This document shows, in pieces, positions 45,625-62,719 of a DNA stretch of 64,000 bases. The first letter of the stretch is position 1, and each line of letters begins with the position of its first letter. Source of the stretch: a marine gamma proteobacterium HTCC2080 (GTDB taxonomy: Bacteria; Pseudomonadota; Gammaproteobacteria; Pseudomonadales; Halieaceae); the NCBI GenBank assembly GCA_000169115.1, contig AAVV01000007.1, positions 62,001-126,000 on the forward strand. Direction: 5' to 3'. The notes beneath the pieces are model-generated. The model searched no databases. It saw only the letters and a list, made by a program, of their open reading frames with translations, and had not been told where the DNA came from. The position numbers were made by a program, and so were the translations under genes.

Positions 45625-45646
45625 ACAAACAGATTTGAATGTTTGT
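45625..45646. promoter_or_regulatory. operator-like inverted repeat, member of the CAAAC...TTG family
   Basis: ACAAACA and TGTTTGT are perfect seven-base arms eight bases apart; the inner CAAACAGATTTG (45626-45637) aligns with the core of the five repeats at 47753-62716, with TTTG in place of CTTG. It lies about 72 bases upstream of the MDR reductase start. This is the most divergent of the six sites. Confidence 0.45.
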
Positions 45647-45675
45647 ATTTTTCGTCCCAGAAAAACAAAACACAG

Positions 45676-45692
45676 CCACTATAAAATAGTGG
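45676..45692. promoter_or_regulatory. perfect inverted repeat CCACTAT-AAA-ATAGTGG
   Basis: Seven-base perfect arms around AAA; the centre reads TATAAAAT, so it could be an operator overlapping a -10 box. About 125 bases upstream of the MDR gene. Not followed by a T tract, so not a terminator. Confidence 0.45.
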
Positions 45693-45932
45693 TGAATCTG
45701 ATAATGCGCATAGGAGTGCGTACAAGCCTTTAAACCTTATCGACAAGGCACCGGAACTTCTGTTTTCATTGCAGTCAGGTGCCAGAAATTACACGCCGCA
45801 CCGCAGTAGCCCCATAATCAACGGCAATGCGTGGGCCACCAAAATTTCCTAGCAATGGGTGAGTTGTGGCAAGGTTTATCATCTACGTCGCACAACTGGC
45901 GACGTCAGACAACAGCAATTAAGGAGACCATG

Positions 45933-46340
45933 ATGGCTAGCGGCGGGTGTTTGTGTGGAGACATTACTTATGAATACGACCAGCAACAATCTACCGCAGC
46001 ACTGCATTGCCACTGTCGCGACTGTCAGAAAGTCACGGGGTCTGGCAAAGCCACCATCGTGCTCTTTCCCGAAGATGCGGTGCAAATTACCGGCAAGTTC
46101 AAACAATATGGCGCCTTGGGTTCTGATGGATCCCACGTCAATCGTGGCTTTTGCTCCCGCTGTGGCAGCCAGATGTTTACACATATTGAAGAGATGCCCG
46201 GACTCATTTTCGTAAAGGCCGGCACTCTTGATGATTCGTCTTGGGTACAAGTTTCCCTCAACTGCTGGGAATCAACTGCATCCCAATGGTCACCGGCAAA
46301 CAGTGAACTTCCCGGCGCAGAAAAAAATCCAAATCTATAA
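45933..46340 (+). CDS. GFA-family (glutathione-dependent formaldehyde-activating-like) protein
   Basis: A 135-residue zinc-binding beta-fold protein with the family cysteines in GCLCGDI, CHCRDCQKVTGS and CSRCGSQ. Despite the family name, most members have unknown reactions; binding of glutathione adducts is typical. ATG 45933 has AAGGAG six bases upstream; an ATG three bases earlier is too close. It stands alone before an SDR gene. Confidence 0.85.
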   Translation: MASGGCLCGDITYEYDQQQSTAALHCHCRDCQKVTGSGKATIVLFPEDAVQITGKFKQYGALGSDGSHVNRGFCSRCGSQMFTHIEEMPGLIFVKAGTLDDSSWVQVSLNCWESTASQWSPANSELPGAEKNPNL

Positions 46341-46500
46341 AGGCTGTCGCGAACCACTAACCCCACCCAAGGATGGGCAGAAAAAGCCACGAGGCATCGA
46401 CATACATCGAACAAAAATTCAGCGGCAACAATTTTCAGCATTGCCTTAAAAATTTAGGGCTTAAAATTTCAAGAGAAATTTCCAGCAGAGGAATGTCACT

Positions 46501-47256
46501 ATGTTTTCAGAGTTGAAAGGAAAAGTTGCTGTTGTTACGGGTGGCGGTGCTGGCATCGGCCTTGCTTGCGCGGCACGGCTTGCAGAAGCTGGTGTCGCAG
46601 TGGGCGTCGCAGACATTGATAGCGCTGCGGCGCATCAAGCCGCTGCAGACTTAACGTCCCAAGGTCATCGTTGCGTGGCGATAGTTACCGATGTCAGCAA
46701 GGCCAAAGAGGTTGAAAAGTTATTTCAAATAACCAACGAAGCTTTTGGCCCTATCAACATTGCTGTCAACAATGCAGGGGTTGGCGCGCCACTAACACCG
46801 CTTGGTGATACTGAGGAGGAAGATTTTGACCGAGTCATGGCTGTCAATTTGAAAGGGGTATGGCTGTGCATGAGGGCAGCATTGCGTCACATGGCACCGC
46901 AAAAATCAGGCTCCATTATCAACATGGCGTCGGCACTGAGTACCACCACATTTCCAGGCAGCGGCCTTTACACAGCAAGTAAGCACGGTGTCGCGGGACT
47001 GACTCGAAGCGCTGCCGTCGAGTATGGCGAGAGTGGTATCCGTATAAATGCTATCTGCCCCGGCTTCATTTCCACGCCACTGCTGCACAGCACAGTTACC
47101 GAGGAGGCGGCCAAATCGATGGCGGCAAGGCACCCTATGAACCGCTTAGGCACCCCAGCAGAAATCGCTGACGCGGTTACTTACTTGGCATCAGATGCCT
47201 CGTCATTCGTCACTGGCAGCCTATTCTCAATTGATGGCGGCTGGACAGCGACCTAA
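46501..47256 (+). CDS. short-chain dehydrogenase/reductase
   Basis: A 251-residue classical SDR: TGGGAGIG (about 13-20), NNAGVG, INMASA and catalytic YTASK (LYTASKHGVAG), ending VTGSLFSIDGGWTAT. The type resembles glucose/3-oxoacyl reductase-like enzymes, and the product is soluble. It follows the GFA gene by 160 bases, without overlap. Confidence 0.92.
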   Translation: MFSELKGKVAVVTGGGAGIGLACAARLAEAGVAVGVADIDSAAAHQAAADLTSQGHRCVAIVTDVSKAKEVEKLFQITNEAFGPINIAVNNAGVGAPLTPLGDTEEEDFDRVMAVNLKGVWLCMRAALRHMAPQKSGSIINMASALSTTTFPGSGLYTASKHGVAGLTRSAAVEYGESGIRINAICPGFISTPLLHSTVTEEAAKSMAARHPMNRLGTPAEIADAVTYLASDASSFVTGSLFSIDGGWTAT

Positions 47257-47374
47257 GCAAAGTAACGGTTAGCGGCGCAGTCAGTTTGGGTCCAAGCGAT
47301 GCCGCAATGAGATCAGCAAGTTGTAGGGGTTGAGGAGACCGAAGCATTTAACGCCGTTACTGCCTAAGCATTTC

Positions 47375-47686
47375 TTAACCGGCTTTTACCCCAATCATGC
47401 CACCTTCAATCTGCACATCGAAAGTTTTCAGAGCAACTCGCGTTAGCTGACCAACGGGTTCGCCTGTGCTCAGCTTAAAGCGCACACCATGCAGCGGACA
47501 AGATACATGGCCTCGGCGTATGCGCCCGCCCGCAAGAGATTCCTGTTGATGCGAACATCGACTCTCAATTGCAAAGATGTCTCCATCAGCATTACATAGC
47601 AGTACCTCACAACCATTAACCGTGACTACCTCACTGGTATTTGGTGACAGGGCCTGCAGCTCCAGCACTGGTATGTAATCATCCAT
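47375..47686 (-). CDS. Rieske [2Fe-2S] ferredoxin
   Basis: A 103-residue Rieske protein with ligands Cys44-x-His46 and Cys63-xx-His66 (RCSHQQESL and SCPLHGVRF). This small soluble form carries electrons to aromatic-ring oxygenases (BphF/NirD-like). It could feed the three Rieske alpha subunits of this island. It is divergent from the MDR gene at 47828, with an operator-like repeat in the gap. Confidence 0.92.
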   Translation of the reverse strand: MDDYIPVLELQALSPNTSEVVTVNGCEVLLCNADGDIFAIESRCSHQQESLAGGRIRRGHVSCPLHGVRFKLSTGEPVGQLTRVALKTFDVQIEGGMIGVKAG

Positions 47687-47749: not shown

Positions 47750-47767
47750 AAACAAACGTGCTTGCTT
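47750..47767. promoter_or_regulatory. operator-like inverted repeat AAACAAACGTGCTTGCTT
   Basis: Arms AARCAARC and GYTTGYTT are inverted; the site lies between the divergent Rieske ferredoxin (64 bases) and MDR (61 bases) starts. It agrees with the site before the TetR gene in 17 of 18 bases. Confidence 0.65.
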
Positions 47768-47827
47768 CTTTTCCAAACCGCGGCTAGCTTAGCACTACCT
47801 TAATAAGATTTTTGGAGAGAATACGCC

Positions 47828-48838
47828 GTGCTACCGATGACAAAACAACAATGGACCCTGAAAGCGCGCCCGCAGGGAATACCTGATCGCAGCGAAGTCG
47901 ATATCGAAACGCGCACGATTGATCATGTGCCGGACGAACATTTGCTCATTGAATGCCTCTATTTTTCGATGGACCCCGCAATAAGGGGGTGGATGTCAGA
48001 CGTACCTAATTATTTACCTCCAATTCCCTTAGGTGACTCAGTTCGTTCCTCAGTCGTTGGGAAAGTATTGCAGAGCGAGGCAGACGGCTTCAGCACCGGT
48101 GATCTCGTTGTTGGAACCGGTGGCTGGGAAACTCATGGCGTTGTGCCAGCGGCCTACTTCTCGGTTATACCCCCAGACAGCCCCTTCCCTGCTCACTACT
48201 ACCTGAGCGCTCTTGGCGCAGTGGGCCTGACACCTTACTTCGGTCTCCTACGGGCGGGTAAAGCTGCCGCAGGGCAAACGCTGCTGATGAGTGCAGCTGC
48301 GGGCGCTGTGGGATCGATTGGCGGACAGATTGGCAAAATTCTGGGACAAAGGGTTGTCGGAATCGCCGGCAGTGACGAAAAATGCCGATGGGTGACTGAT
48401 GAACTAGGCTTCGATAGCTGCATCAACTACAAAACCTGTGGTGATATGGAGCAGGCGATTCGGGGTGCTTGTCCAGAAGGGGTCGATCTATTTTTCGATA
48501 ACGTTGGCGGTGAAATTTTGGATGCCGCGCTGATGAATCTAAATAAAGATGCCAACATTGTTTTCTGTGGCAGCATCAGTAATTACAACGCAACCGAGCC
48601 CGTGCCTGGACCCTACAACTGGTGGCAAGTACTGGCGAGAAGCGTGACGGTTCAGGGCTACCTTATCAGCGACTATCTTTCCGAGTTCCCGGAAGGACAA
48701 GCGCAGATTTCCGAGTGGATTAATTCAGGACAACTTAAGTTCAAAGAACATATTGTCGATGGCTTCGAAAACACCCTCGACGCCTATAACTTGCTCTTCG
48801 AGGGCAAGAATGACGGCAAGTTAATGGTCAAAGTCTAG
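47828..48838 (+). CDS. MDR-family NADP-dependent oxidoreductase
   Basis: The 336-residue product is a paralogue of the one at 44546. It has GAVGLTPYFGLL, LMSAAAGAVGSIGGQIGKI and FFDNVGGEILDAAL. It is a zinc-free reductase of the LTB4DH/curcumin-reductase group. The start is GTG at 47828, with GGAGAG about eight bases upstream; an ATG three codons on has worse spacing. A terminator follows directly after the stop. Confidence 0.9.
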   Translation: MLPMTKQQWTLKARPQGIPDRSEVDIETRTIDHVPDEHLLIECLYFSMDPAIRGWMSDVPNYLPPIPLGDSVRSSVVGKVLQSEADGFSTGDLVVGTGGWETHGVVPAAYFSVIPPDSPFPAHYYLSALGAVGLTPYFGLLRAGKAAAGQTLLMSAAAGAVGSIGGQIGKILGQRVVGIAGSDEKCRWVTDELGFDSCINYKTCGDMEQAIRGACPEGVDLFFDNVGGEILDAALMNLNKDANIVFCGSISNYNATEPVPGPYNWWQVLARSVTVQGYLISDYLSEFPEGQAQISEWINSGQLKFKEHIVDGFENTLDAYNLLFEGKNDGKLMVKV

Positions 48839-48844
48839 CCGCTC

Positions 48845-48872
48845 GGGGGAGTCCAACTCCCCCAAAGTTTTT
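48845..48872 (+). terminator. rho-independent terminator after the MDR gene
   Basis: The perfect stem GGGGGAGT-CCA-ACTCCCCC lies six bases past the stop and is followed by AAAGTTTTT. It sits between convergent genes; on the minus strand there is no T tract, so it mainly serves the plus strand. Confidence 0.8.
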
Positions 48873-50043
48873 AAAGGCTGGGGAATTCGCCCTCGCCGCC
48901 CTCGGCGTAGTACTCAATACAGCGATGAGCAAACTGATTCCCACTTTCGTTCTTGCCAAAAATCACGTCCGCCAAATGACCTGACTGCAAACCGCGTTGC
49001 ACCTGCAAACCCACTTGGTAATCTTCCTCGTCTACAACCTGCATAAGCCAATCAGCCATCTGCTCCAAACCCGCGATCTCTTCGGCATCTTCTGGCTTGG
49101 TATGATGAATAAAATGCAGCACAGTTGTATTTTCGAGTGGCCCAGGGCCCGGGATCAGCTGAGCGATCTGAGTAATTTCAGGCGCCACAAAGATCGAGAC
49201 GTTGGGGAAGAACAGGCGAATGAAGTCGTAACCGTCGTTTTCATGCTGCCACAACTCATCCTTAGGAATATCTTTCAATTTTTCAATGGTTTTCGCTGGA
49301 TAGCCCACTAGCATATGCGGCCCATAAGCCTCGAATGCCATAACGTTAGTGTAGGTTCTAGGCGCAATGGTCTCTGGGTGGGCTGCCTGAAAATGATACC
49401 CCTCTAAGTAACCATCAAGTGCCACCTTCCAGTTAGCACCATGAATCACTCGCTGGCCAACGTAGTACCAATCTTCAAAATGCTTCTCCGCAATATCGCT
49501 CATCATTTCACCGAGGAAGCCACGAATATCACATTCAGATGCGGGATCGAGTACTGCAAAGATGAGCCCACCCTCTTCGTGACAAGGAAAAGCGATAAGA
49601 TCACGATCACCTCGGCAATCCTCGCCGAATTTGACGACATCTGCGACGCCTCTTAGTCGACCGTCACCACCATAAGTCCAGGCATGATAAGGACAGCTAA
49701 AGGTCTTTTTGTTACCGGCGGGTCGAGATTCAAGAATCATTCCCCTGTGGCTGCAAACATTCATCAAGACTTTGGCGGAACCATCAGCTTGCCGACAAAT
49801 CAGCAAAGGCATCCCCAAAATATCCAGAGTTTTGAAATCGCCCTTTTCGGGAAGCTCATGTGAGAGCCCAACTAAGATCGGCAAGCTCTTAAATATGCCG
49901 TCCATTTCCTTCTGCCAAACATCGCCGTCGGTGTACTGTGTCGCAGGAACCCGCAGCGTATCTATAGCGCTATCGGTAGTTCCGTTGGCAACGTGATCAC
50001 GTAATCGGTCTGCCATCTGATTGTAAAGTGCGTGCCTGTCCAT
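48871..50043 (-). CDS. Rieske non-haem iron oxygenase, alpha subunit
   Basis: A 390-residue oxygenase with Rieske ligands Cys97-x-His99 and Cys117-xx-His120 (VCSHRGMIL and SCPYHAW) and mononuclear iron histidines in LEGYHFQAAHPE. It is shorter than the other two alpha subunits and only distantly similar. It is divergent from the SDR at 50298, with an operator-like repeat in the gap. No beta subunit is adjacent. Confidence 0.93.
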   Translation of the reverse strand: MDRHALYNQMADRLRDHVANGTTDSAIDTLRVPATQYTDGDVWQKEMDGIFKSLPILVGLSHELPEKGDFKTLDILGMPLLICRQADGSAKVLMNVCSHRGMILESRPAGNKKTFSCPYHAWTYGGDGRLRGVADVVKFGEDCRGDRDLIAFPCHEEGGLIFAVLDPASECDIRGFLGEMMSDIAEKHFEDWYYVGQRVIHGANWKVALDGYLEGYHFQAAHPETIAPRTYTNVMAFEAYGPHMLVGYPAKTIEKLKDIPKDELWQHENDGYDFIRLFFPNVSIFVAPEITQIAQLIPGPGPLENTTVLHFIHHTKPEDAEEIAGLEQMADWLMQVVDEEDYQVGLQVQRGLQSGHLADVIFGKNESGNQFAHRCIEYYAEGGEGEFPSL

Positions 50044-50154: not shown

Positions 50155-50172
50155 AGTCAAGCATGCTTGCTT
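50155..50172. promoter_or_regulatory. operator-like inverted repeat with core CAAGCATGCTTG
   Basis: The 12-base core is a perfect palindrome. It lies between the divergent Rieske oxygenase (112 bases) and SDR (126 bases) starts and is the most symmetrical member of the family. Confidence 0.65.
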
Positions 50173-50297
50173 TTTTCTGGTCGCTTACATACCCTAACCT
50201 CGGTGAGTTGCTGACACGTCAATTGTGTGACCGCCGGTAACATAACATCAATGCGCTCTCAGCCAATCCGGCCATGAGCGCAGCAAAGGACGATCCT

Positions 50298-51083
50298 ATG
50301 GGCGACAAACTCGCTGGCAAAGTGGCACTTATCACTGGCGGAACCAATGGCATTGGTAAAGCCACCGTAGAGCGCTTCATGGCAGAGGGAGCTGCGGGTG
50401 TCGTATTTACCGGCAACAATATTGAGGCGGGTAACGCCATTTCTGCAGCAACGGGTGCAGACTTCATTCAACATGCCGTTCAAGATATTCAAGGCTGGTC
50501 AGGGGTAAAAGATTTTATTCAAAACAAGTTTGCTCGCCTCGATATCGCCTTCGCGAACGCCGGCACTAACGCAGGTGACAGCAACATTGAAGATGTGACC
50601 CCAGAGGCTTGGCAAAATCTACTCGATATCAATCTGACAGGGCCCATGATGACGATTAAGGCCGCAGCGGAACTCATGCGCGCCAACCCTGAAGGCCCTG
50701 GAGGTTCGATTGTTCTGAACAGCTCAATCAATGGCATCTTGGCACTCGCGGGAGACGTCACTTATTCAACAACCAAAGGTGCCATGCGGTTACTCGCTAA
50801 GTCGAGTGCGGTGCATTTGGCCAAGAACAACACCAACATCCGCGTTAACACAATTCACCCCGGGGTCATTGGCACACCGCTTATTGAAGGCGCTATCAAT
50901 GGCGCGCCAGATCCATTAGCAGCTCGATCTATGCTGGAAGGCATAGCCCCCATGGGACGGTTGGGGCAAATGGAAGAGGTCGTCAATCTTTTGCTTTATC
51001 TGGGATCAGACGAATCGCGCTTTATGACGGGTTCTGAGTTGGTCATCGACGGCGGCTCAACCGCCGGCCTGCCAGGCGTTTAG
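50298..51083 (+). CDS. short-chain dehydrogenase/reductase
   Basis: A 261-residue classical SDR: TGGTNGIG, NAGTN, LNSSI and catalytic YSTTK (VTYSTTKGAMRL), ending MTGSELVIDGGSTAG. ATG 50298 follows AAAGGA seven bases upstream and is preferred to 50274. It is divergent from the Rieske oxygenase at 48871, suggesting joint expression, perhaps as dehydrogenase for the product diol or alcohol. Confidence 0.92.
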   Translation: MGDKLAGKVALITGGTNGIGKATVERFMAEGAAGVVFTGNNIEAGNAISAATGADFIQHAVQDIQGWSGVKDFIQNKFARLDIAFANAGTNAGDSNIEDVTPEAWQNLLDINLTGPMMTIKAAAELMRANPEGPGGSIVLNSSINGILALAGDVTYSTTKGAMRLLAKSSAVHLAKNNTNIRVNTIHPGVIGTPLIEGAINGAPDPLAARSMLEGIAPMGRLGQMEEVVNLLLYLGSDESRFMTGSELVIDGGSTAGLPGV

Positions 51084-51104: not shown

Positions 51105-51506
51105 CTACTCTCCGTGTAAGACTCGAAACCGTCTCAATGAGAATTTCCACTCTCCGTTCTCACGGATGCACTCATCCTCGTACTCACCTCTAGGCTCAAT
51201 TTGAGTGCCATCCTGCATAACAGCAACCTCACTGGTGTAGCTGCGCATGACCGCATGGTCGCCATCAATAGAAATGTACCCAGGCTGTGCCATCATGTTA
51301 ACAAAGGGAAAAAGCTGCATAGCTTCTAACCATGCCGAAACAATGTTATCTCGTCCGGTGATACCGGACATTTCCAAATGCGGCAGTTCCCAAACCGCGT
51401 CATTTGCCCAGGTACTACCCCAGATCTCAGCATCGCGTTGGTTCACACCATCGCAGTAGCGCTCGAGTAAGGCGCGAATTTCTAACTGGTCCTCAAAATT
51501 ATTCAT
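51105..51506 (-). CDS. SnoaL/NTF2-like protein
   Basis: A 133-residue cystatin-like-fold protein (IRALLERYCDGVNQRDAEIW, and KFSLRRFRVLHGE at the end). It resembles the SnoaL_4 group and small-subunit-like proteins of ring oxygenases. ATG 51506 has GGAGAGG immediately upstream. It is downstream of the SDR at 51587 in the same direction, while converging with the SDR at 50298. Confidence 0.8.
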   Translation of the reverse strand: MNNFEDQLEIRALLERYCDGVNQRDAEIWGSTWANDAVWELPHLEMSGITGRDNIVSAWLEAMQLFPFVNMMAQPGYISIDGDHAVMRSYTSEVAVMQDGTQIEPRGEYEDECIRENGEWKFSLRRFRVLHGE

Positions 51507-51586
51507 GACCTCTCCAAACGACTCTTTGTGACCGCAGCAATGCCTGGCGCGACACGCATTATCAGTGACGCCAGGTCGGCAAACTG

Positions 51587-52351
51587 TCACTGATTAATAA
51601 TGCCCCCATCAACGACCAACTGTGTTCCGGTGATGTAAGCCGAAAGATCGCTAGCCAGGAACAGAGCCGCATCGCCAATGGTCTTTGGAGCCCCCATGTA
51701 CCCCATAGGAATCGTCGACACCAGCGCATCGTACTCATCAGTGTTTTCTGTCGAGGCTTGCACGTTCATATTGGTCGCAATCATGCCTGGGTGAATCGTA
51801 TTGCAACGTATGCCCTCTGGGGCGGTCTCAGCAGCGACTGCTTTGGTAAAGCCAAGGACCCCACCCTTACTGGCCGCATAGGCGCTGACGCCTATTACTC
51901 CTATGAGTGCGGCGATGGATGACATATTGATAATAGACCCTTTTGTGCCAGTTTCTCGCATCATTGCAACCGCCGACTGCGTACCTAAAAACAGGCTTGT
52001 CATATTCACCACCATCTGACGGTTATAGTCTTCGAGGGTGATATCTTCCAATTTTTTGAGCACGGCGATTCCCGCGTTATTGACCAGGGTATCTATGCGT
52101 CCATGATCGTCTCTAATGCGACCCATTGTGGCCTTCCAACCTTCCGGATCTGTGACGTCTTGTCGCCAGGCCGTCGCCGAACCGCCTGCTGCGTTAATGC
52201 TTTCGGCCGTGGCCTCCGCACCATTGAGGTCGACATCAGTCGCAATAACGGTCGCACCCTCTGCACCAAAACAGTGTGCAATTGCGTGACCCAGCCCCGG
52301 ATTTGAAGCCGCACCTGTTACCAAACAAACTTTGCCGCTAAGCAACCCCAT
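51587..52351 (-). CDS. short-chain dehydrogenase/reductase
   Basis: A 254-residue classical SDR with a slightly altered cofactor loop, TGAASNPGLG, then NNAGIAV, INMSSI and catalytic YAASK (VSAYAASKGGVLGF), ending ITGTQLVVDGGIINQ. Substrate unknown. It follows the SDR at 52396 in the same direction with a gap of 44 bases, so the two and the SnoaL gene probably share one transcript. Confidence 0.92.
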   Translation of the reverse strand: MGLLSGKVCLVTGAASNPGLGHAIAHCFGAEGATVIATDVDLNGAEATAESINAAGGSATAWRQDVTDPEGWKATMGRIRDDHGRIDTLVNNAGIAVLKKLEDITLEDYNRQMVVNMTSLFLGTQSAVAMMRETGTKGSIINMSSIAALIGVIGVSAYAASKGGVLGFTKAVAAETAPEGIRCNTIHPGMIATNMNVQASTENTDEYDALVSTIPMGYMGAPKTIGDAALFLASDLSAYITGTQLVVDGGIINQ

Positions 52352-52395
52352 GATGAATTCTCCTTTTTATCAAAATTATTAGTTACTCGAAAAAT

Positions 52396-53211
52396 CTACT
52401 CTGGCGCAGGAATTTCACCCGCCGCGATCATCGCTTCCTCTAATTCATGAGCCCGAGGATTTCGACGCAAACACAGGCCACCATTAACCTGTAAGTTCTC
52501 TCCAGTCATAAAACAGTCTTCACTCGCCAAAAAAAGCGCCGCAGCGGCGATATCATCTGAGGTGCCGTAGCGTCCCATGGGATAACACTGCGAGAAAGCT
52601 TTAGCTAAGGCCGGGCTTTGCAATGCGTCAGCAGTCATGGGGGTATCGGTCAGCCCCGGAGAAATCGTGTTCGCCCTGATGCCCTTCGTGCCAAACTCGT
52701 TAGCGACGGTACGAATGACGTGATCTATTCCCGCCTTCGTGCCCATATAAGCTGCATGATTATCCAACATGATCTTTGCCGTAGCAGACGAGATTTGAAT
52801 AATACAGCCCTGACCCTGAACCGACATAACCTCAACTAAACGTTGGAGCCAGATAAAAGGGCCCTTGAATTGAAGATCAACCATACGATCCAGTTCATCT
52901 TCCGAGGTCTCACAAAACCCATTCAGAAGCCCCCAACCTGTGGCATTGATGGCCACATCAATACTCCCATGCCGCTTCTGAACCTCGGTCACCATATGAC
53001 CAATAGAAGCACGATCACAGAAATCGCAAGCGACCCAATCACCATCGATCGATGATGCTAGATCAGCCAAAACATCCGTTCGACGGCCAGACACCACAAC
53101 CTTAGCGCCCGCTTCTGCAAAACGGCGCGCCATTATCTGACCCATATTGCCCGGAGATCCAGCCCCCACAATAGAAACCACTTTGCCTGCGCCAGAGAAA
53201 CTTCCAAACAT
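52396..53211 (-). CDS. short-chain dehydrogenase/reductase with a variant cofactor loop
   Basis: A 271-residue SDR. The N-terminal loop reads VGAGSPGNMGQ, where most classical SDRs have TGxxxGxG; the active-site region shows ISSATAK and YMGTK (YxxxK). It ends MTGENLQVNGGLCLRR. ATG 53211 has GGAG five bases upstream. An operator-like repeat lies 39 bases upstream. The first gene of the SDR-SDR-SnoaL unit. Confidence 0.9.
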   Translation of the reverse strand: MFGSFSGAGKVVSIVGAGSPGNMGQIMARRFAEAGAKVVVSGRRTDVLADLASSIDGDWVACDFCDRASIGHMVTEVQKRHGSIDVAINATGWGLLNGFCETSEDELDRMVDLQFKGPFIWLQRLVEVMSVQGQGCIIQISSATAKIMLDNHAAYMGTKAGIDHVIRTVANEFGTKGIRANTISPGLTDTPMTADALQSPALAKAFSQCYPMGRYGTSDDIAAAALFLASEDCFMTGENLQVNGGLCLRRNPRAHELEEAMIAAGEIPAPE

Positions 53212-53249
53212 ACGCACTCCGCTCAATGACTTTGGTGCTTCAGAAACTT

Positions 53250-53267
53250 AAACAAATGTACTTGCTA
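53250..53267. promoter_or_regulatory. operator-like inverted repeat with core CAAATGTACTTG
   Basis: It lies 39 bases before the SDR at 52396 and about 30 bases downstream of the TetR stop. The core matches CAAACNTGCTTG at nine of the eleven defined positions. Placement right before a start codon fits a repressor site. Confidence 0.6.
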
Positions 53268-54783: not shown

Positions 54784-55925
54784 CAGACGTAGCCATTGTC
54801 GGGTTAGGACTTCATCCATTTGGCCGCAGCCCTAGCCTCTCGGGTTTAGAACAGGGCGCAATAGCCGCCAGAGCGGCCATTGCCGACGCCGGTACCGAGT
54901 TTAAAGCAATGGAATTTGCATTTGGTGGGAGCCAAGACGGCGGAAATGCTGACTCGCTGGTGAACTTGTTGGGCTTAACGGGACTGCAATTTACCAACAT
55001 TTGGAATGGCTGCGCGACCGGTGGTAGCTCACTGAATGCTGCTTACTCTGCAATCAAATCCGGTCAGTATGATATGGGACTCGTTGTCGGTTTTGATAAG
55101 CACGCCCGGGGCGCGTTCAACCCCCAACCAAAAGACTGGGGGCTTGACGACTGGTATGGGGAAACAGGGCTCATGCTGACTACGCAATACTTCGCCATGA
55201 AAATTCAACGATATATGCACGACCATGAAATCTCTCGAGAGACCTTAGTGCGTGTTGCGGAGAAGGCTTTTCGCAATGGCTCCATAACCCCTACTGCGTG
55301 GCGACAAACTGCCTTGACGGCAGAGGACATTGAACAGGCGCCCATGGTCAGCGAACCCCTCAATAAATATATGTTCTGCTCCCCCGCAGAGGGCGGCTGC
55401 GCCCTTGTGCTGTGTCGCGCTGACATTGCCAAAAACTACACCAACAACCCGGTACTGCTGAGAAGTGCGGTTGTTCGGTCGCGGCACTATGGCAGTTTTG
55501 AAGTTTTCAGCCCATCACAAGCACCTGTCGTTGCTCCCTCGCCGACTGTCACGGCATCACGTGCAGCCTTTGAATTTGCGGGTATCGGCCCAAAAGATGT
55601 CGATGTCGCCCAGCTTCAGGATACCGAGGTTGGCGCTGAAATCATGCATCTGGCAGAAAATGGATTCTGTGAACACGGCGAACAAGAACGGTGGATCAAA
55701 GAGGGGGCCACAGAGATCAATGGGATTCTCCCGGTGAATACCGACGGTGGTTGCTTAGCTAATGGCGAACCAGTAGGTGCGTCGGGTTTAAGGCAGGTTT
55801 ATGAAATCTGTCATCAGCTGCGTGGCACTGCGGGCCAGCGCCAGGTCCCCAATGCGCCAAAAGTAGGTTATACCCATGTTTATGGTGCGCCCGGTATCAG
55901 TGGGGTCAATATTCTGACAACCTAA
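54780..55925 (+). CDS. thiolase-like (SCPx-type) enzyme with nucleophilic cysteine
   Basis: A 381-residue thiolase-fold protein with the N-terminal VAIVGLGLHPFG and a cysteine at the thiolase nucleophile position (NGCATGG, Cys78). The C-terminal half has HVYGAPGISG. It could cleave a 3-oxoacyl-CoA, unlike the Gly84 paralogue at 38416. It starts on the last bases of the DUF35 gene and is followed by a Rieske gene. Confidence 0.87.
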   Translation: MTDVAIVGLGLHPFGRSPSLSGLEQGAIAARAAIADAGTEFKAMEFAFGGSQDGGNADSLVNLLGLTGLQFTNIWNGCATGGSSLNAAYSAIKSGQYDMGLVVGFDKHARGAFNPQPKDWGLDDWYGETGLMLTTQYFAMKIQRYMHDHEISRETLVRVAEKAFRNGSITPTAWRQTALTAEDIEQAPMVSEPLNKYMFCSPAEGGCALVLCRADIAKNYTNNPVLLRSAVVRSRHYGSFEVFSPSQAPVVAPSPTVTASRAAFEFAGIGPKDVDVAQLQDTEVGAEIMHLAENGFCEHGEQERWIKEGATEINGILPVNTDGGCLANGEPVGASGLRQVYEICHQLRGTAGQRQVPNAPKVGYTHVYGAPGISGVNILTT

Positions 55926-55962
55926 AGGCTTGTCATTAAAACGGATCGATCAGGAGAGGTCT

Positions 55963-57345
55963 ATGAACAAAGCAGAAGACAAGAAACAGGGTGATGGCGG
56001 CCGTTTTAAAGGCACGACATTTCAGGATCTCCTAGACCAGGAAACTGTCGAAGTTCCGGAATTTTTGCGATTGCAAAGCAATCCCCCGCTTGGCGATGAG
56101 GACTTATCGGTAGATCGCTATATTAGTCAGGAGTTTTTTGACCTTGAAAAGGACCGCATGTGGTCCAAAGTGTGGCAAATGGTCTGCCGAGAGGAAGACA
56201 TTGCCGAGCCGGGCGACCATCATGTTTACAACATTATCGACAATAGCGTCATTATTACCCGAACACCCTCTCACTCAATTCGAGGATACATAAACAGCTG
56301 CCTGCATCGCGGGCGCTGCCTTCGCGATGAGTCTGGGTCTGTCACTGAATTCCGCTGCCCCTTTCACGGCGCAACTTGGAACCTTGATGGCGAGTTTCAA
56401 GGCATACCTTGCCAGTGGGACTTTGATCACCTTGCTGATCGCGACATGGCCCTTCCCGAAGTGAAAACGGCCACATGGGGCGGCTTTGTATTCATCAACT
56501 TTGACCCTGAATGTGCGCCCCTCGAAAAATACATGGAGGTGATGCCAGAGCATTTCTCTCGGTACCCCCTCGAGAAGTACTTTAAAGGTGTGCACGTTCA
56601 GCGAGTGATGAAATGTAATTGGAAGGTCGGTGCGGAAGCTTTCATGGAATCTTGGCACACCCTAGAAACGCACAAACAGATACTTACATTCACTGGTGAT
56701 GAAAACTCTCAATACGATACCTTTGGCGCAAATGTCAGTCGCTCCGTGACCCCCATGGCCGTACATAGCCCCCACTTAAATAACATCTCAGATGAAGCGA
56801 TTATCAGAGACATACTAAAACTTTCTGGGCGAATGGCCTTGGACAGTGATGAAGGCGTAGAAATGCCAGAAGGAATATCTGCACGCCGCTATGTCGCTGA
56901 TATGAATCGCGAAATGTTTGAGGAAGCCTCGGGCCAAGATCTATCAGACGCCACAATGGCAGAGCTAGAAGATGCGATTTTATATAGCCTATTTCCTAAC
57001 TTCCAAGTTTGGGTGGGTTACAACGGCAATATTGTTTATCGATTTCTTCCCAATGGGGATGACCCCCACAGCTGTATTTTTGATGTCATGATTCTTTTGC
57101 GCTACCCAGAAGGTAGTGAACGACCTGACCCCGCAGATTGCATTGTAATCCCGGAAACTGAGTCCTTTTCATCGGTGCCTGAACTCGGTGCACTAGGCCC
57201 CGTTTTCGATCAGGATGATGCCAACTTACCTGCGGTACAACGTGGTATGAAGGCATCAAAAAAGGGCGCTGTCAGCTTAGCCAGCTATCAAGAGAGTCGA
57301 ATACGACACCTACATGCGACTCTAGATAACTATATTAAGTCCTGA
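55963..57345 (+). CDS. Rieske non-haem iron oxygenase, alpha subunit
   Basis: A 460-residue oxygenase with Rieske ligands Cys113-x-His115 and Cys132-xx-His135 (SCLHRGRCL and RCPFHGATW) and the mononuclear iron site in EAFMESWHTLETHKQ. ATG 55963 follows AGGAGAGG. It is in a plus-strand operon with DUF35, thiolase-like, ThuA-like and DUF3604 genes. It is about the same length as the one at 36622, and the two occupy the same place in parallel cassettes. Confidence 0.93.
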   Translation: MNKAEDKKQGDGGRFKGTTFQDLLDQETVEVPEFLRLQSNPPLGDEDLSVDRYISQEFFDLEKDRMWSKVWQMVCREEDIAEPGDHHVYNIIDNSVIITRTPSHSIRGYINSCLHRGRCLRDESGSVTEFRCPFHGATWNLDGEFQGIPCQWDFDHLADRDMALPEVKTATWGGFVFINFDPECAPLEKYMEVMPEHFSRYPLEKYFKGVHVQRVMKCNWKVGAEAFMESWHTLETHKQILTFTGDENSQYDTFGANVSRSVTPMAVHSPHLNNISDEAIIRDILKLSGRMALDSDEGVEMPEGISARRYVADMNREMFEEASGQDLSDATMAELEDAILYSLFPNFQVWVGYNGNIVYRFLPNGDDPHSCIFDVMILLRYPEGSERPDPADCIVIPETESFSSVPELGALGPVFDQDDANLPAVQRGMKASKKGAVSLASYQESRIRHLHATLDNYIKS

Positions 57346-57355
57346 GGAGGTCTTC

Positions 57356-58165
57356 ATGAGTGAAGCTCGAACAGCCGGTCGCATCAATGGCATCTTAGTT
57401 GCTAGCGGATCTTGGCATGATATTGATTTTGCCCGGCTTGAACTGCTCAAACTGCTTGCCGAGTTTGATCGTGTTCGCATTCGAGTGTTTGAGGATTATG
57501 AGAATCTCGAAGCCCTTGCAGAGGCTGATTTTTTGGTGAGCTATACCTGTAATGTGGTGCCCTCCCTGCCCGCTCAAGAAGCCCTTAAAAGCTGGGTTCA
57601 GGAGGGTGGACGCTGGTATGCACTTCATGGCACCAATTCTATTATCAGACTGATGTCTGACGGTATATTTGAAACACCCGATTGGGCGCCGCTCTTTGTC
57701 GATACCCTGGGCTCCATGTTTCGGTCACATCCACCCATCGAACCGTACACCGTGAACGTTGCCGATACTGACCATCCGCTGGTCGCGGGCCTAGAGTCCT
57801 TCCAAGCTACAGATGAACAATACTTGATGCAGACCTTTGGCGATCTCAAAGTGCTCCTAGAAACTGAGTACGGTGGCGATGCGCCGGGCTTCAGAGAAGA
57901 TCATTGGGAAAAGGCTAAACATCCCGTGTTTTACATAAAGGAACAGGGTAAGGGCGCCGTGTTGTATCTCACGCTCGGTCACTGCCGCCACCATTATGAT
58001 ATGCAGCCGCTGATGGACTACTGGCCCAACATCGAACGCTGCGCCTGGGATACGCCCCAGTTTTATGAACTACTTCGAAGAGGTTTGCAGTGGGCAATGG
58101 AGCCCGTTGATCAGGCCAGCTTAACCGCCGCCGCAGAGGCTCGCAAAAATGCACCGGAACTCTAA
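57356..58165 (+). CDS. ThuA-like domain protein
   Basis: The 269-residue product has a class-I-glutamine-amidotransferase-like ThuA fold: GGRWYALHGTNSI and DHPLVAGLESFQATDEQYLM, and GKGAVLYLTLGHCRHH near the end. ThuA proteins are linked with sugar-like substrates, but many are uncharacterised. It starts 10 bases after the Rieske stop and overlaps the DUF3604 gene by 17 bases, so it is part of the operon. The first cassette (34-40 kb) has no counterpart. Confidence 0.82.
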   Translation: MSEARTAGRINGILVASGSWHDIDFARLELLKLLAEFDRVRIRVFEDYENLEALAEADFLVSYTCNVVPSLPAQEALKSWVQEGGRWYALHGTNSIIRLMSDGIFETPDWAPLFVDTLGSMFRSHPPIEPYTVNVADTDHPLVAGLESFQATDEQYLMQTFGDLKVLLETEYGGDAPGFREDHWEKAKHPVFYIKEQGKGAVLYLTLGHCRHHYDMQPLMDYWPNIERCAWDTPQFYELLRRGLQWAMEPVDQASLTAAAEARKNAPEL

Positions 58166-60086
58166 CCAATACTTAGCAGGCCACACCCCAGAACCTGCGT
58201 CCCAACAACGGCGTAATAAACGTCTCAATGCACTCTGGATTGCGCTTGCAGTCGGTGCCGCCACGACTCAGGCATGGGCATCTACCCCGGGTGAAACACT
58301 AATCTCTCCATCTGCTTACTCCGCGCCAATCGCCAACAATGAGCGTCAGCTCCTATGGGGTGATACACACCTACATTCCAACGTTTCAGCAGATGCCTTC
58401 ACCCTTGGCTCGCGATTGGGGCCCGACCAGGCCTACCGTTTCGCTATGGGCTTACCGGTCACCAATGAATTGGGGCAGACCGCACGACTGCGTGCGCCCT
58501 TGGACTTCCTCGCAGTCACCGACCACGCGGAGTACCACGGCGTTTTTCCGCTACTGGAGGAGCGCGACGCCCAGCTAGATGGCTGGCCCTTAGGCCAGCA
58601 AATGGCTGACCTGCTTCAGGCTGACAAAAACATTGAACTTGCCAAGTTATTTTCGGATGCGATCCAAAGTACCGACCCGGCACTTCGAACGCCCGGAGCA
58701 CTTGTTCAGAGCGCTTGGCATGCCAGTATTGACGCCGCCGAGGCTGCGTATACACCCGGAGTCTTTACAACGTTAATCGGGTACGAATGGACATCAATGG
58801 TAACCGGTGACAATTTACACCGAGTGGTTCTTTTTCGCGAAGGCTCAGAACACACCCGTAAAGTGATTCCTTTTTCCGCTCAGGACAGCACCGACCCCGA
58901 GGCACTCTGGTCTGCGCTTTCCGACTATGAAGCTGCGACCGGCGGACGGGTTATGGCCATCCCCCACAATGGCAATTTGAGTAATGGCCGAATGTTTGCT
59001 CCGACGCGCAACAACGGTGACGCAATCGATGCCGACTACGCAAAACGGAGGCGTTACTGGGAACCGCTCTATGAGATGACGCAGGTCAAAGGAGACTCAG
59101 AGACACACCCAGCCCTATCGCCTGAGGATTCCTTTGCAGACTTTGAAACTTGGGACGATGGCAACATTACATTGACGACTGCAAAAGAGCCCGAGATGCT
59201 ACCCTACGAATATGCTCGCTCGGCACTGGGATTAGGTCTTGCTCATCGTGAGCAGCTGAGTGTAAACCCCTTTGATTTTGGCATGATTGGCTCCAGCGAT
59301 ATCCACACTGCATTGGCCACAACCGAAGAAGATAACTACTTTGGTAAATTCCTTCATGACGGCCCAGCCCCTGGTCGCACCGAGTTAAAAATGGCGGGCC
59401 AACTTCAACAAATTTGGCGCATGGTTTCATCGGGGCTCGCCGGAGTTTGGTCAACGCAAAATACCCGAGAAGCTATCTTTGATGCCATGCAACGAAAAGA
59501 AGTCTTCGCGACCACGGGCAGCCGAATTCGAGTGCGTTTCTTCGCTGGCTGGAACTTTGATGATGGCACCCTGCAGGACTCGCAGTGGACTCAAAAAGGC
59601 TATGCCCAAGGCGTTCCAATGGGCGGTCAATTACCGGCCACATCGGATGCTGACCTTGCACCTACCCTCATGATTAAAGCGCAGAAAGATCCAAATGCAG
59701 CACATCTTGATCGCATTCAAGTGATCAAGGGCTGGCTAGACGCTGAAGGAAAACACCATGAAAGAATTTATGACGTGGTGGCCTCAGGAAAGCGGGTACG
59801 AAATTCCTCTAATGGGCTCTTTGAACCGGTAAAAGACACGACAAACCTCGCCACAGCAACCTACAGCAATGCGGAGGGCGCGGCTCAACTCGAGGGAATT
59901 TGGCGCGACCCCGATTTTGAATTGAACCAAGCCGCGTTTTATTACGTGAGAGTGCTTGAAATACCGACACCACGCTGGACCAGCTTTGATGCTCTGCGGT
60001 TCCAAGAAGATAGGGCCGCGGGGGATGACGGTAAGCTGCAAGAGCGAGCTTACACTTCGGCCGTGTGGTATTACCCCGAAGGCTGA
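58149..60086 (+). CDS. DUF3604 protein (PHP-like metallohydrolase fold), exported
   Basis: A 645-residue paralogue of the protein at 34796. A signal peptide (about 28-45, cleavage near AWA) precedes QLLWGDTHLHSNVSADAFT. Possible metal ligands lie in the HxH pair, DHAEY, PHNGNLSNGRMF and SSDIHTAL. By eye the two proteins share roughly half their residues in the first 150 positions. The function of the family is not established. It is the last gene of the cassette. Confidence 0.88.
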   Translation: MHRNSNQYLAGHTPEPASQQRRNKRLNALWIALAVGAATTQAWASTPGETLISPSAYSAPIANNERQLLWGDTHLHSNVSADAFTLGSRLGPDQAYRFAMGLPVTNELGQTARLRAPLDFLAVTDHAEYHGVFPLLEERDAQLDGWPLGQQMADLLQADKNIELAKLFSDAIQSTDPALRTPGALVQSAWHASIDAAEAAYTPGVFTTLIGYEWTSMVTGDNLHRVVLFREGSEHTRKVIPFSAQDSTDPEALWSALSDYEAATGGRVMAIPHNGNLSNGRMFAPTRNNGDAIDADYAKRRRYWEPLYEMTQVKGDSETHPALSPEDSFADFETWDDGNITLTTAKEPEMLPYEYARSALGLGLAHREQLSVNPFDFGMIGSSDIHTALATTEEDNYFGKFLHDGPAPGRTELKMAGQLQQIWRMVSSGLAGVWSTQNTREAIFDAMQRKEVFATTGSRIRVRFFAGWNFDDGTLQDSQWTQKGYAQGVPMGGQLPATSDADLAPTLMIKAQKDPNAAHLDRIQVIKGWLDAEGKHHERIYDVVASGKRVRNSSNGLFEPVKDTTNLATATYSNAEGAAQLEGIWRDPDFELNQAAFYYVRVLEIPTPRWTSFDALRFQEDRAAGDDGKLQERAYTSAVWYYPEG

Positions 60087-60290: not shown

Positions 60291-60698
60291 TCAGCGACTT
60301 TGCTTCGCTTTAAACGCCTCATGGGCTGCTCTCAGTGGTGCCGCATCGAAATAATAGGGCCTAATTTCACACACCTTTCCATCGCGGAACCTGAACATTT
60401 CGCAAAGGTGCGCAGGCTCAAGGCCGTCAGCGAATTCAAAATGAAGGATAGTCACCACGTAATCACCGCCACTGGTCATTTCAGTACGCACCACGTTGGT
60501 GACCTCAAGCATGCCGAATACTTGGGCATAGAGATCCCTCAACGCCGTTATACCGGTAAAGGTGCCGGCCATGGGCGTATCGTCGGCCTCTACTATAAAA
60601 AAGTCGTCCGTTAGCAGGGTTTCGCAGGTGTCAAAATCACCGACTGCAGACCGTTCGTACAGCCGGTTCACGATGGCTAGTTTCTCGTCGTCTGTCAT
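60291..60698 (-). CDS. NTF2/SnoaL-like protein
   Basis: A 135-residue cystatin-like-fold protein of the SnoaL_2-like type (MTDDEKLAIVNRLYERSAVGDFD, and ALRDLYAQVFGMLEV). Reaction unknown. ATG 60698 follows GAGGA ten bases upstream and lies 14 bases past the acyl-CoA dehydrogenase stop; the two are likely co-transcribed. Confidence 0.8.
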   Translation of the reverse strand: MTDDEKLAIVNRLYERSAVGDFDTCETLLTDDFFIVEADDTPMAGTFTGITALRDLYAQVFGMLEVTNVVRTEMTSGGDYVVTILHFEFADGLEPAHLCEMFRFRDGKVCEIRPYYFDAAPLRAAHEAFKAKQSR

Positions 60699-60711
60699 AT
60701 CTAAATTATCC

Positions 60712-61935
60712 TCACTGATTAGAAAATCGCTCAATAATTTGTTTACCCAAGGCCATTTGGTGAACCTCATCGGGGCCATCGGCCTGACGACACCACCGCG
60801 CGTAATTGAAGTTCTCGGCCATAGACCAATCCTCCGTCAGCCCGCCAGCACCATGCATCTGCATACACCGATCAATTACAGTCTGAATAACGAGTGGCAC
60901 GGTTGTTTTTGTCGATGCAATCATTGGAATTGAAGCCTTCACACCTTGATTATCGATCGTCCAACAGGTTTTCTGAACCAGCAAACGTGCCATCTCTATT
61001 TCTGAAAAACATTTGGAAATGTTTTCCCGGATCGACTGATGCTTACTTAGAGGGCGACCAAAAGTCTGGCGATCGGTAACCCGTTGGCAGGCATTTTCTA
61101 GGGCCTGCTGGCCCGCGCCAATTAGGCGCATACAGTGATGCATGCGCCCCGGTGCCAAACGGGTCTGAGCGATTTCAAAACCACGCCCCTCGCCTGCAAG
61201 AACGTTGTCTAACGGCACTCTTACATCATCGAACACAATTTCTGCGTGACCCAGAGGCGCATCGTCGTAGCCCAAGGTCGTAAGCGGTCTAATTATGTTG
61301 ACCCCTGGAGTATTTTTAGGCACTAAAATTTGACTCTGTTGTAGGTGACGACTGCTATTTTCAGGGTCACTTTTTCCCATAACGATCAGAATTTTACACC
61401 GGTCATAGAGCGCGCCAGTGATAAACCATTTTCTCCCATTCAGCACCCAAGAATCGCCATCTTTACGAATACTGAGCTGAACATTAGTGGCGTCACTAGA
61501 GGCGACTTGGGGCTCTGTCATCGCATAGGATGAGCGAATTTCACCTGCCAATAGCGGCACCAACCATTCAGCCTTTTGCGCCTCGGTACCGAAATTCATG
61601 AACACTTCCATGTTGCCGGTATCAGGGGCATTGCAGTTAAATACCTCTGCAGACCAAATCACGCGACCCATCTCCTCAGCTAAGGGCGCATACTCCAAAA
61701 AACTTAAACCGCCCTGCTCACTAAATTCAGCATGGTCAGGTGGCACAAACAAATTCCACAGACCCTGATCCCTTGCCTTACGCTTAAGTTCATCCATAAG
61801 TGGCAAGGGTGCAAAACGATTCTCTGCGGAAGCCAATCCATGGCGATAAGCGAGCTCATTAGGAAAAATAAACTCAGCCATGAAGGCCTTCAGGCTTGCC
61901 AATAAGGCTTCAGATTTTTCGGAAACAGTATGCAT
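60712..61935 (-). CDS. acyl-CoA dehydrogenase (ACAD10/11-like)
   Basis: The 407-residue FAD enzyme has SSYAMTEPQVASSDATN, KWFITGA, RQTFGRPLSKHQSI and the C-terminal MHGAGGLTEDW. It introduces a double bond into an acyl-CoA. The type resembles ACAD10/11 and phosphate-linked 4-hydroxyacyl branches, but substrate is unknown. ATG 61935 (MHTVSEK) is preferred to 61986. It is followed by the NTF2-like gene. Confidence 0.9.
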   Translation of the reverse strand: MHTVSEKSEALLASLKAFMAEFIFPNELAYRHGLASAENRFAPLPLMDELKRKARDQGLWNLFVPPDHAEFSEQGGLSFLEYAPLAEEMGRVIWSAEVFNCNAPDTGNMEVFMNFGTEAQKAEWLVPLLAGEIRSSYAMTEPQVASSDATNVQLSIRKDGDSWVLNGRKWFITGALYDRCKILIVMGKSDPENSSRHLQQSQILVPKNTPGVNIIRPLTTLGYDDAPLGHAEIVFDDVRVPLDNVLAGEGRGFEIAQTRLAPGRMHHCMRLIGAGQQALENACQRVTDRQTFGRPLSKHQSIRENISKCFSEIEMARLLVQKTCWTIDNQGVKASIPMIASTKTTVPLVIQTVIDRCMQMHGAGGLTEDWSMAENFNYARWCRQADGPDEVHQMALGKQIIERFSNQ

Positions 61936-62216
61936 AGTAGTTTGGACAACCCTTTTTAAAGCTGTGTTTTGGCAAATGTGTAGCATGCTTCACCAACATC
62001 CCACCCGACTCACCATTTTTTCGTTAATTTATCGTAATGGCCCAAAATTCTGAAGACCACCTCTATCTATCTACTTAACCCTGACCGCCGCCAACAGGCT
62101 CTTTGAAACTGTAAAACCCGGCATTGGGGCGCAGCTGTTTCTTCAGCACGGGCGGACTCAATGGATGAGACAACTACAGCCCTAACGATCAGGGCATCAC
62201 TCTCTCGTCGTATTTT

Positions 62217-62546
62217 TTATTCCTCCGGCGCTATCTCTAGAACCAAACCATTCAGCTCGGACGTCATGGATATCTGGCAGCTCAAGCGTGACCGACCGCT
62301 GTCGAAATGATCTGAATAGGTAAGCAATAAATCTTCAACCTGTTCACGAGGGGGTAAGCGCGACACCCATTCCTCAGCAATATAGACGTGACAGGTGGCA
62401 CAAGACGCACAACCACCGCAGGCCGCTTCCACCCCTTGGTCATTTTCAAAGAGCAATTGCATCAATGTGGCTTGCCCCGCGCTTTGTTCCAGCGTGCTGG
62501 TTACACCATCGCGCGAAATGACCGTGATTTTCGGTAAATCAGACAT
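62217..62546 (-). CDS. adrenodoxin-type [2Fe-2S] ferredoxin
   Basis: A 109-residue plant/adrenodoxin-type ferredoxin. Cluster ligands are Cys43, Cys49, Cys52 and Cys90 in ACGGCASCATCHVY and SRLSCQI; an extra Cys46 lies inside the loop. Such ferredoxins donate electrons to P450s, so the P450 at 43324 is a candidate partner. It is divergent from an AMP-ligase gene across a region rich in inverted repeats. Confidence 0.92.
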   Translation of the reverse strand: MSDLPKITVISRDGVTSTLEQSAGQATLMQLLFENDQGVEAACGGCASCATCHVYIAEEWVSRLPPREQVEDLLLTYSDHFDSGRSRLSCQISMTSELNGLVLEIAPEE

Positions 62547-62641
62547 CGTAAAAACATCTCCTAACTATTAAGCACCAGTAGCAAAGTCATTATCATAACC
62601 CTGAAGGCCTCACCCATTTGTAGCGTACAAAATCGGTAAAA

Positions 62642-62660
62642 GCGCTGTTCAAGGCAGCGC
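62642..62660. promoter_or_regulatory. inverted repeat GCGCTG-N7-CAGCGC
   Basis: Six-base perfect arms in the ferredoxin/ligase divergent region, nearer the ferredoxin gene. One of three inverted repeats in 80 bases. Possible operator. Confidence 0.3.
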
Positions 62661-62675
62661 GCAATCTTCATTAAT

Positions 62676-62694
62676 CAGTGGCACAATGCCACTG
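62676..62694. promoter_or_regulatory. inverted repeat CAGTGGC-ACAAT-GCCACTG
   Basis: Seven-base perfect arms eight bases upstream of the operator-like repeat at 62702. No T tract follows, so an operator or a leader hairpin is more likely than a terminator. Confidence 0.4.
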
Positions 62695-62701
62695 TTCGTG
62701 A

Positions 62702-62719
62702 ACACAAACAATCTTGTTT
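62702..62719. promoter_or_regulatory. operator-like inverted repeat with core CAAACAATCTTG
   Basis: It lies between the divergent ferredoxin and AMP-ligase genes, 155 and 112 bases from their starts. The flanks extend to a perfect ACAAAC-N6-GTTTGT repeat. The core keeps CAAAC, T and CTTG of the consensus family. Confidence 0.55.

Follow-up and report, generated by a model that had tools for sequence, protein, structure and literature searches.

We analysed a 64,000-nucleotide stretch of the genome of the marine gammaproteobacterium HTCC2080 (the window; G000:C19:62001-126000, in a genome of 3.58 Mb), in which a gene for a TetR-family regulator lies among genes for Rieske oxygenases, ferredoxins, reductases and acyl-CoA enzymes. 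Judged from sequence comparison, this TetR is most probably (about 0.85) a local autorepressor, which would sit on the -35 boxes of divergent catabolic promoters and keep these closed until it binds an inducer. Three kinds of observation underlie this reading: the conservation of the sites, their co-inheritance with the TetR gene, and their fixed spacing to TAnnnT boxes. The TetR dimer would recognise an 18-bp near-palindrome, AARCAARCNNGYTTGYTT, present in four of the cluster's divergent promoters, and at least one half-site of each operator would occupy a promoter -35 position, 17-18 bp before a TAnnnT box. Between the Rieske oxygenase B gene (RieskeB) and SDR2 both halves would lie on -35 positions, so that one dimer could close two back-to-back promoters by denying access to RNA polymerase. 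On binding a metabolite of the pathway or its CoA ester, TetR would let go of the DNA, and the oxygenases, ferredoxins, dehydrogenases, acyl-CoA ligase and thiolase/OB pair would then be switched on together. An initial annotation of this DNA had proposed one TetR, a set of operators and a local catabolic regulon; its core idea was upheld, with the loss of two of its six sites.

Inverted repeats were found at all six positions named in the initial annotation or at most 4 bp away, all of them between genes. The 18-mer proposed there, AAACAAACNTGCTTGCTT, gave six matches at five places in the window when up to 3 mismatches were allowed, compared with 0.23 expected from shuffles. Five sites had been said to fit this 18-mer; only those at 47750 and 54099 were exact, those at 50155, 53250 and 62706 carried 3 mismatches, and the one at 45626 did not fit even with 3. 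Five of the six repeats, not four as had been stated, lay between divergent genes, the remaining one (53250) being located between the co-directional tetR and SDR4. The purine/pyrimidine palindrome AARCAARCNNGYTTGYTT was a better consensus, with no mismatch at 47750 and 54099, one at 62706 and two at 50155. The two letters that break it at 50155 belong to the flank (AGTC) and were invariant across 26 loci. The site first placed at 62702 was better set at 62706, the two being overlapping registers 4 bp apart that scored 13.2 and 23.9 bits respectively.

An operator matrix was built from 91 sites of the four promoter types, each with at most 2 mismatches and no N; registers of G010 containing N and the RieskeB/SDR2 site of G037, with 3 mismatches, were left out. 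Leave-out matrices were made without the window's own genome (G000), or additionally without G032, G017 and G052. With these, the four operators ranked 1-4 in the window (23.5-26.1 bits), followed by these sites in shifted registers, and the best unrelated place reached 10-11 bits; since the matrix sites had been selected by likeness to the motif, this ranking test was not fully independent. The element at 53250 ranked 35-36, and position 45623, the register tested for 45626, ranked 49-52. The six-site family was thereby reduced to four members (47750, 50155, 54099 and 62706; 23.5-26.2 bits), with 45626 and 53250 being non-members by the matrix. The operator family is beyond chance, and it is smaller and better defined than the six sites first described.

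Across the whole genome three sites were found at no more than 1 mismatch, all in the window and within 15 kb. At no more than 2 mismatches there were 15 forward matches versus 12 for a reversed-pattern control, and a distal regulon in the organism's own genome was therefore unsupported. One 18-mer, AAACAGACCTGCAAGCTT, stands identically at two distant places of the genome (G000:C17:94776 and G000:C18:127572; L005 and L006) and is possibly part of a repeated element.

The loci sampled for conservation came from all 26 TetR-positive genomes of the genus, 32 of 34 other matching genomes of the family (all except G129 and G130) and 15 of 16 further genomes of the order (all except G426). A TetR orthologue was present in 26 of 57 genus genomes, the window's included, with the other 25 copies being 56-95% identical. 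All 26 had at least one site at no more than 1 mismatch (70 forward matches in total, overlapping registers counted), and the reversed pattern gave 8 matches in the 57 genomes. RieskeB (E <= 1e-60) was found in 29 of the 57, comprising every TetR-positive genome and 3 of the 31 TetR-negative ones (G016, G022 and G043). In these three the contigs end 0.1-1.1 kb upstream of RieskeB, so that a lost tetR is indistinguishable from a missing one. Fisher p values, uncorrected for relatedness and draft incompleteness, were 2e-8 for TetR versus site and 3e-13 for TetR versus RieskeB.

The close group consisted of 28 loci, from the 26 TetR-positive genus genomes together with G071 and G133; not every stretch reaches all four promoters. 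Gene order around tetR was largely common to the genus loci, with gains and losses. Two expectations of the initial annotation, that the motif would accompany TetR orthologues and would be intergenic rather than coding, were borne out here. At no more than 2 mismatches, a site stood next to tetR in all 28 loci, giving the palindromic operator near its own gene by which a TetR-family regulator may be recognised; sites were also found in the RieskeB/SDR2 promoter of 26, the Rieske ferredoxin/CurR2 promoter of 18, and the ACAD (acyl-CoA dehydrogenase) or Fer2/ligase promoter of 19. Within the 780 kb of these loci, 113 of 132 such matches fell outside the open reading frames (ORFs) of a simple model, in 11% of the bases, and the reversed pattern gave 4 matches. 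At no more than 1 mismatch, 8 of 58 matches lay in a model ORF, none of them inside a match to a window gene. When intergenic regions were aligned, the operator overlapped the best conserved 18-bp segment in four of five (23, 25, 20 and 4 loci). Operator 1 (operators are numbered as in Table 1) overlapped it in 23 aligned regions and operator 3 was exactly that segment in 20, whereas in the fifth region (8 loci) the TAnnnT region was better conserved than the operator. A strongly conserved element, TACTATATAGT[CT]ATC, was seen upstream of the ligase in 13 of 19 close loci (e.g. L060 and L055; G009 and G029); it mostly stands 17 bp after the operator and is the best conserved stretch of the ligase promoter in 8 aligned loci.

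Wider searches gave relatives of TetR in 60 of the 140 genomes of the family (E <= 1e-20) and in 24 of the 341 sampled from the order (E <= 1e-22). The deeper group comprised 39 loci, two of them from G109, mostly at 34-45% identity; six stretches lacking a TetR gene were excluded. Sites were counted in this group if above the 99% shuffle level, CurR2 being testable in 22 loci and SnoaLb in 17. Twenty of the 22 CurR2 loci and 16 of the 17 SnoaLb loci had an operator-like site upstream of the gene, with about 0.2 expected in each case. Among seven out-of-family loci (51-57% identity), five had a site upstream of tetR, and SDR4 was preceded by one in 6 of 6. The recognition-helix region of the window TetR, VSRGAMMHHF, was unchanged across the 26 genus orthologues and those of G071 and G133. 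In the deeper group it was mostly VSRGAMLHHF (one residue, MM to ML), with a few proteins differing more, and operators there mostly ended in GACTGATT, GACTGTTT or GGTTGACT on the right, not in GCTTGCTT as in the close group. The two shifts are consistent with a co-change of helix and operator, without being proof of it.

Some features were particular to deeper-group loci. In L128 the TetR match (G293:C6:82470-83132) holds one TAA inside its span, and the upstream operator is a near-perfect palindrome, AAACAATCACGATTGTTT. A gene of the carotenoid-oxygenase family lies directly behind the SnoaLb-side operator of L122 (L122:13770-15212) and in the same place in many other deeper-group loci; its best NCBIfam model was apo-carotenoid cleaving enzyme, at 300 bits versus a cut-off of 675. 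Genes for aldehyde dehydrogenase, LLM-class and molybdopterin oxidoreductase proteins occur near tetR in loci such as L122. Within the genus, a carotenoid oxygenase was rejected as a marker of the regulon, as 54 of 57 genomes have one and G041, without it, has TetR.

The position of the operators relative to the TAnnnT boxes suggested how binding might act. The right half of operator 1, TTGCTT (54111-54116), stands 17 bp from TAGTAT (54134-54139), and the same distance separates TTGCTT (47762-47767) from TAGCTT (47785-47790) at operator 3. At operator 2 it recurs on both strands, between TTGCTT (50167-50172) and TACCCT (50190-50195), and on the minus strand between TTGACT (50160-50155) and TAGCCT (50137-50132). 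In loci aligned on this operator, a TAnnnT box was located 17 bp past the right half in 25 of 26 on the SDR2 side, and 17 bp past the left half read backwards in 26 of 26 on the RieskeB side. The invariance of AGTC at 50155, despite its breaking the palindrome, would be explained if it belonged to the RieskeB -35 box. In the deeper group, all 20 copies of the CurR2 operator, AAACAATCAGG[GT]TTGACT, had a TAnnnT at 17 bp on each side, and all 16 SnoaLb/carotenoid-oxygenase operators had one at 18 bp on one side. The coincidence of operator half-sites with putative -35 hexamers is a new observation of this analysis, and one operator apparently doubling as two -35 positions would be the most distinctive feature of the system. 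Half-sites on -35 positions at fixed spacing are also what would be seen if the conserved 18-mers were common promoter sequence instead of repressor operators. This is extremely unlikely, given that the palindrome reaches into a half without a conserved TAnnnT box on the tetR side of operator 1 and that, unlike a general promoter sequence, it has so few close copies in the genome, all in the cluster. On that tetR side no fixed TAnnnT spacing was found in the close loci, nor was one found at the 10 tetR operators identified in the deeper group.

A different role for TetR, as an activator or as both activator and repressor, overlaps partly with the autorepressor reading, so that the odds given here are not expected to add up to one. 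In favour of such a role, the TAnnnT boxes are weak compared with the consensus, and PsrA, another TetR-family protein, is described both as a repressor and as an activator of rpoS (excerpt of PMC13104628). We regard this role as very unlikely because the operators fall on -35 positions, where, from the geometry, a bound protein would be expected to block the polymerase.

Several results weigh against local autorepression through -35 boxes. The loci are related, and the counts are not independent. Ten of the 31 TetR-negative genus genomes also carried a site at no more than 1 mismatch, 14 sites in all; of the five that were looked at, four stood beside pieces of the cluster (G039 and G043) and one inside a coding gene (G047). 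A site upstream of tetR was found in only 18 of the 39 deeper-group loci, and in some of the others the start of tetR coincides with the end of the upstream gene, so that autoregulation is not universal. The spacing was less regular at the other operators: 17 bp (12 loci) or 18 bp (16 loci) among 28 between operator 1 and the box on its OB side, where a TAnnnT was also present at 13 bp in 16, and 17 bp (8 loci) or 21 bp (8 loci) among 18 on the CurR2 side, with 21 reflecting a chosen register shifted by 4 bp. A generic promoter scan listed none of the proposed promoters, the boxes being weak relative to the E. coli consensus, and the -35 assignment thus draws on conserved spacing and not on consensus strength. 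We infer, moreover, that the TAnnnT boxes are promoters, that this TetR binds the operators, that it represses, and that a metabolite induces.

The regulator itself has the features of its family. The protein matched PF00440 (TetR_N) with 50.4 bits versus a cut-off of 24 (E 1.9e-13), in agreement with an N-terminal helix-turn-helix. Its AlphaFold2 model was all-helical, as predicted for a TetR fold (mean pLDDT 78.8, pTM 0.69), and the 50 PDB fold matches listed were all described as transcription regulators, many of them of the TetR family, with TetR-type regulators at the top. Named matches to the protein came from seven Luminiphilus/Halieaceae metagenome genomes, with best segments of 61-94% identity. 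The initial annotation had taken tetR for the only regulator gene in the region, which was true of the 20 scanned proteins from 43.3 to 62.5 kb but not beyond the window, where a second TetR gene (L075:11144-11806) lies 11.1 kb past the end. Genes resembling those of alpha/beta-hydrolases and acyl-CoA ligases, named from reading translations, flank this second gene. It raised the question whether the operators are bound by a regulator encoded elsewhere, with our TetR gene a mere neighbour or target, and the genome does contain six matches to the window TetR at E <= 0.001. We consider this quite unlikely. The sites and the cluster are inherited with this particular TetR gene, and related sites accompany its relatives in other families. 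The second TetR has a different recognition helix (YSRGLASYRF), and no site above 4.3 bits was found by the operator matrix in the 20 kb that hold it; with no operator site nearby, it was rejected as the binder.

Known TetR systems were compared with the proposed one. The initial annotation had noted a likeness to KstR2. One published KstR2 probe indeed contains the half-site AAGCAAG; the resemblance is superficial all the same, since the motif differs and the proteins are only weakly similar. The KstR2 regulon of mycobacteria and Rhodococcus likewise has a TetR repressor in its own catabolic cluster and three palindromic operators in divergent intergenic regions; in its motif, AnCAAGnnCTTGnT, the centre is shorter by two bases, the sites described here having four bases between the CAAG and CTTG positions (excerpts of PMC3068626). 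The only copy of CAAGNNCTTG in the window, at 10329, lies outside this region. KstR2 matched the window TetR with a phmmer E of 1.8e-4, below many other TetR proteins, and was only 24th by fold (TM 0.48). Membership in the KstR2 system was rejected on operator motif, weak sequence similarity and fold rank; in its manner of working, with a TetR in its own cluster and few operators in divergent promoters, the system would resemble KstR2 without, as far as these comparisons show, belonging to it.

PsrA of Pseudomonas and Smlt2053 of Stenotrophomonas, also of the TetR family, have an operator, G/CAAAC(N2-4)GTTTG/C, that resembles CAARCNNGYTTG. Smlt2053 autoregulates, as proposed for the window TetR, and PsrA has been linked with fatty-acid metabolism rather than with Rieske and thiolase/OB genes (excerpts of PMC13104628 and PMC10304680). 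The exact form of that operator was found in none of the four operators, each being one or two letters off, and the window TetR scored 27.2 bits on the Vibrio PsrA model NF053516 (cut-off 300). PsrA membership was rejected on the curated model score and the operator form. EdcR of the proteobacterium Caenibius tardaugens is a TetR-like repressor encoded next to a catabolic gene cluster whose operons diverge, and its palindromic putative operators cover core promoter elements, as appears to be the case here; its putative operator TnnCnnTACnAnTnGTAnnGnnA is unrelated, however, and overlaps the -10 and not the -35 element (excerpts of PMC8700777). EthR2 and Rv0078 (PDB 6hrz, 5wm9 and 6c31) were among the best fold matches (about 22% identity, TM about 0.55), a likeness of the general TetR fold, since they were compared by structure only. 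No description of this regulon was found in literature searches on Luminiphilus/Halieaceae TetR, DUF3604, Rieske/thiolase operators, KstR2, PsrA and ChsH2/Ltp2; among the TetR papers listed for the operator half-site, KstR2 was the only related system, and excerpts of PMC10100682 (Luminiphilus) contained nothing on this cluster.

Table 1. Candidate operators, related elements and genes of the TetR cluster (positions in the window)
Feature	Position	Strand	Sequence	Location or associated site	Score or basis
Operator 1	54099..54116		AAACAAACCTGCTTGCTT	between tetR and OB/thiolase/RieskeC/ThuA/DUF3604 genes	26.2 bits
Operator 2	50155..50172		AGTCAAGCATGCTTGCTT	between RieskeB and SDR2	23.9 bits
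Operator 3	47750..47767		AAACAAACGTGCTTGCTT	between Rieske ferredoxin and reductase CurR2	25.3 bits
Operator 4	62706..62723		AAACAATCTTGTTTGTTT	between Fer2 ferredoxin and acyl-CoA ligase; overlapping register 62702	23.9 bits
Degenerate site	53250..53267		AAACAAATGTACTTGCTA	upstream of SDR4	about 0 bits
Inverted-repeat element	45620..45649		CAATAACAAACNGATTTGNATGTTTGTATT	between CurR1 and GFA gene	spacing differs from operators; not assigned to this TetR
TetR-family regulator, 235 aa	53298..54005	-		presumed repressor of the four operators	
OB protein (ChsH2-type), lipid-transfer-type thiolase, Rieske oxygenase C, ThuA, DUF3604	54352..60086	+		downstream of operator 1	Pfam
Rieske oxygenase B (RieskeB)	48871..50043	-		operator 2	Pfam
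SDR2	50274..51083	+		opposite side of operator 2	Pfam
Rieske ferredoxin	47375..47686	-		operator 3	Pfam
CurR2, curcumin-reductase-like MDR enzyme	47828..48838	+		operator 3	Pfam
Fer2 ferredoxin, acyl-CoA dehydrogenase, SnoaL-like protein	60291..62546	-		downstream of operator 4	Pfam
AMP-binding acyl-CoA ligase	62832..64000, continues past window	+		operator 4	open ORF; Pfam AMP-binding
SDR4-SDR3-SnoaL unit	51105..53226	-		only the degenerate 53250 element upstream	Pfam

By Pfam and NCBIfam, the targets fell into Rieske oxygenases and ferredoxins, SDRs, curcumin-reductase-like MDRs, an acyl-CoA ligase and dehydrogenase, and a ChsH2-type OB protein with a lipid-transfer-type thiolase; the best NCBIfam match of CurR2 scored 324 bits, below the cut-off of 440. 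Relatives kept the gene order seen behind operator 1; ThuA and DUF3604 are missing from many of them, and in some, other genes intervene. The window holds two similar modules, at 34796-42133 and 54352-60086, each with DUF3604, Rieske oxygenase, OB protein and lipid-transfer-type thiolase genes. The first was named partly from reading translations, and an operator of this type stands in front of the second only. A 2-oxoacid dehydrogenase set lies between operator 1/tetR and the OB gene in five close loci (G005, G041, G056, G071 and G133; L047/L048, L049, L062/L063, L092 and L093/L094), where operator 1 would drive it. The set, named by reading translations without a family scan, consists of E1 alpha, E1 beta and E2, in some loci also E3. 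An E1 alpha gene also adjoins tetR in two out-of-family loci, and the window's own E1 alpha-like gene (28172-29149) has no operator site near it.

Two elements of the initial annotation were of doubtful assignment. In the SDR4 promoter, five of 12 close loci had AAACATGCTGTA[TA]TGT on the minus strand and 3 more had near variants; the window and its three nearest relatives were without it. Outside the family, the SDR4 promoter carried AAACAGACATG[CT]ATGTTT in 4 of 6 loci. Whether this TetR controls the SDR4-SDR3-SnoaL unit in the window genome is uncertain. The element between CurR1 and the GFA gene was kept in all 4 loci where both flanking genes were found side by side, and it scored -2 bits on the matrix. 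Both elements could be modified targets of this TetR or belong to a different factor.

Taken at its widest, the analysis would describe an old TetR-operator pair in several families of marine gammaproteobacteria, perhaps exchanged between them, in which one 18-bp operator forms two divergent -35 boxes and governs an undescribed catabolic pathway that could degrade algal apocarotenoids or similar alkenes, the thiolase/OB pair cutting the side chain. This full picture is speculative and, as a whole, rather unlikely to be right. Its apocarotenoid part was suggested by the carotenoid-oxygenase-family enzyme directly behind one deeper-group operator, and apocarotenoids as the substrate are a guess. 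The regulon would tie DUF3604, ThuA-like proteins, the lipid-transfer-type thiolase with its OB partner and several Rieske oxygenases, genes of unknown role, together as parts of a single pathway, probably under common control, in coastal marine bacteria. The inducer of TetR should be a substrate or intermediate of that pathway, and searching other genomes with the operator matrix could reveal further clusters for this pathway.

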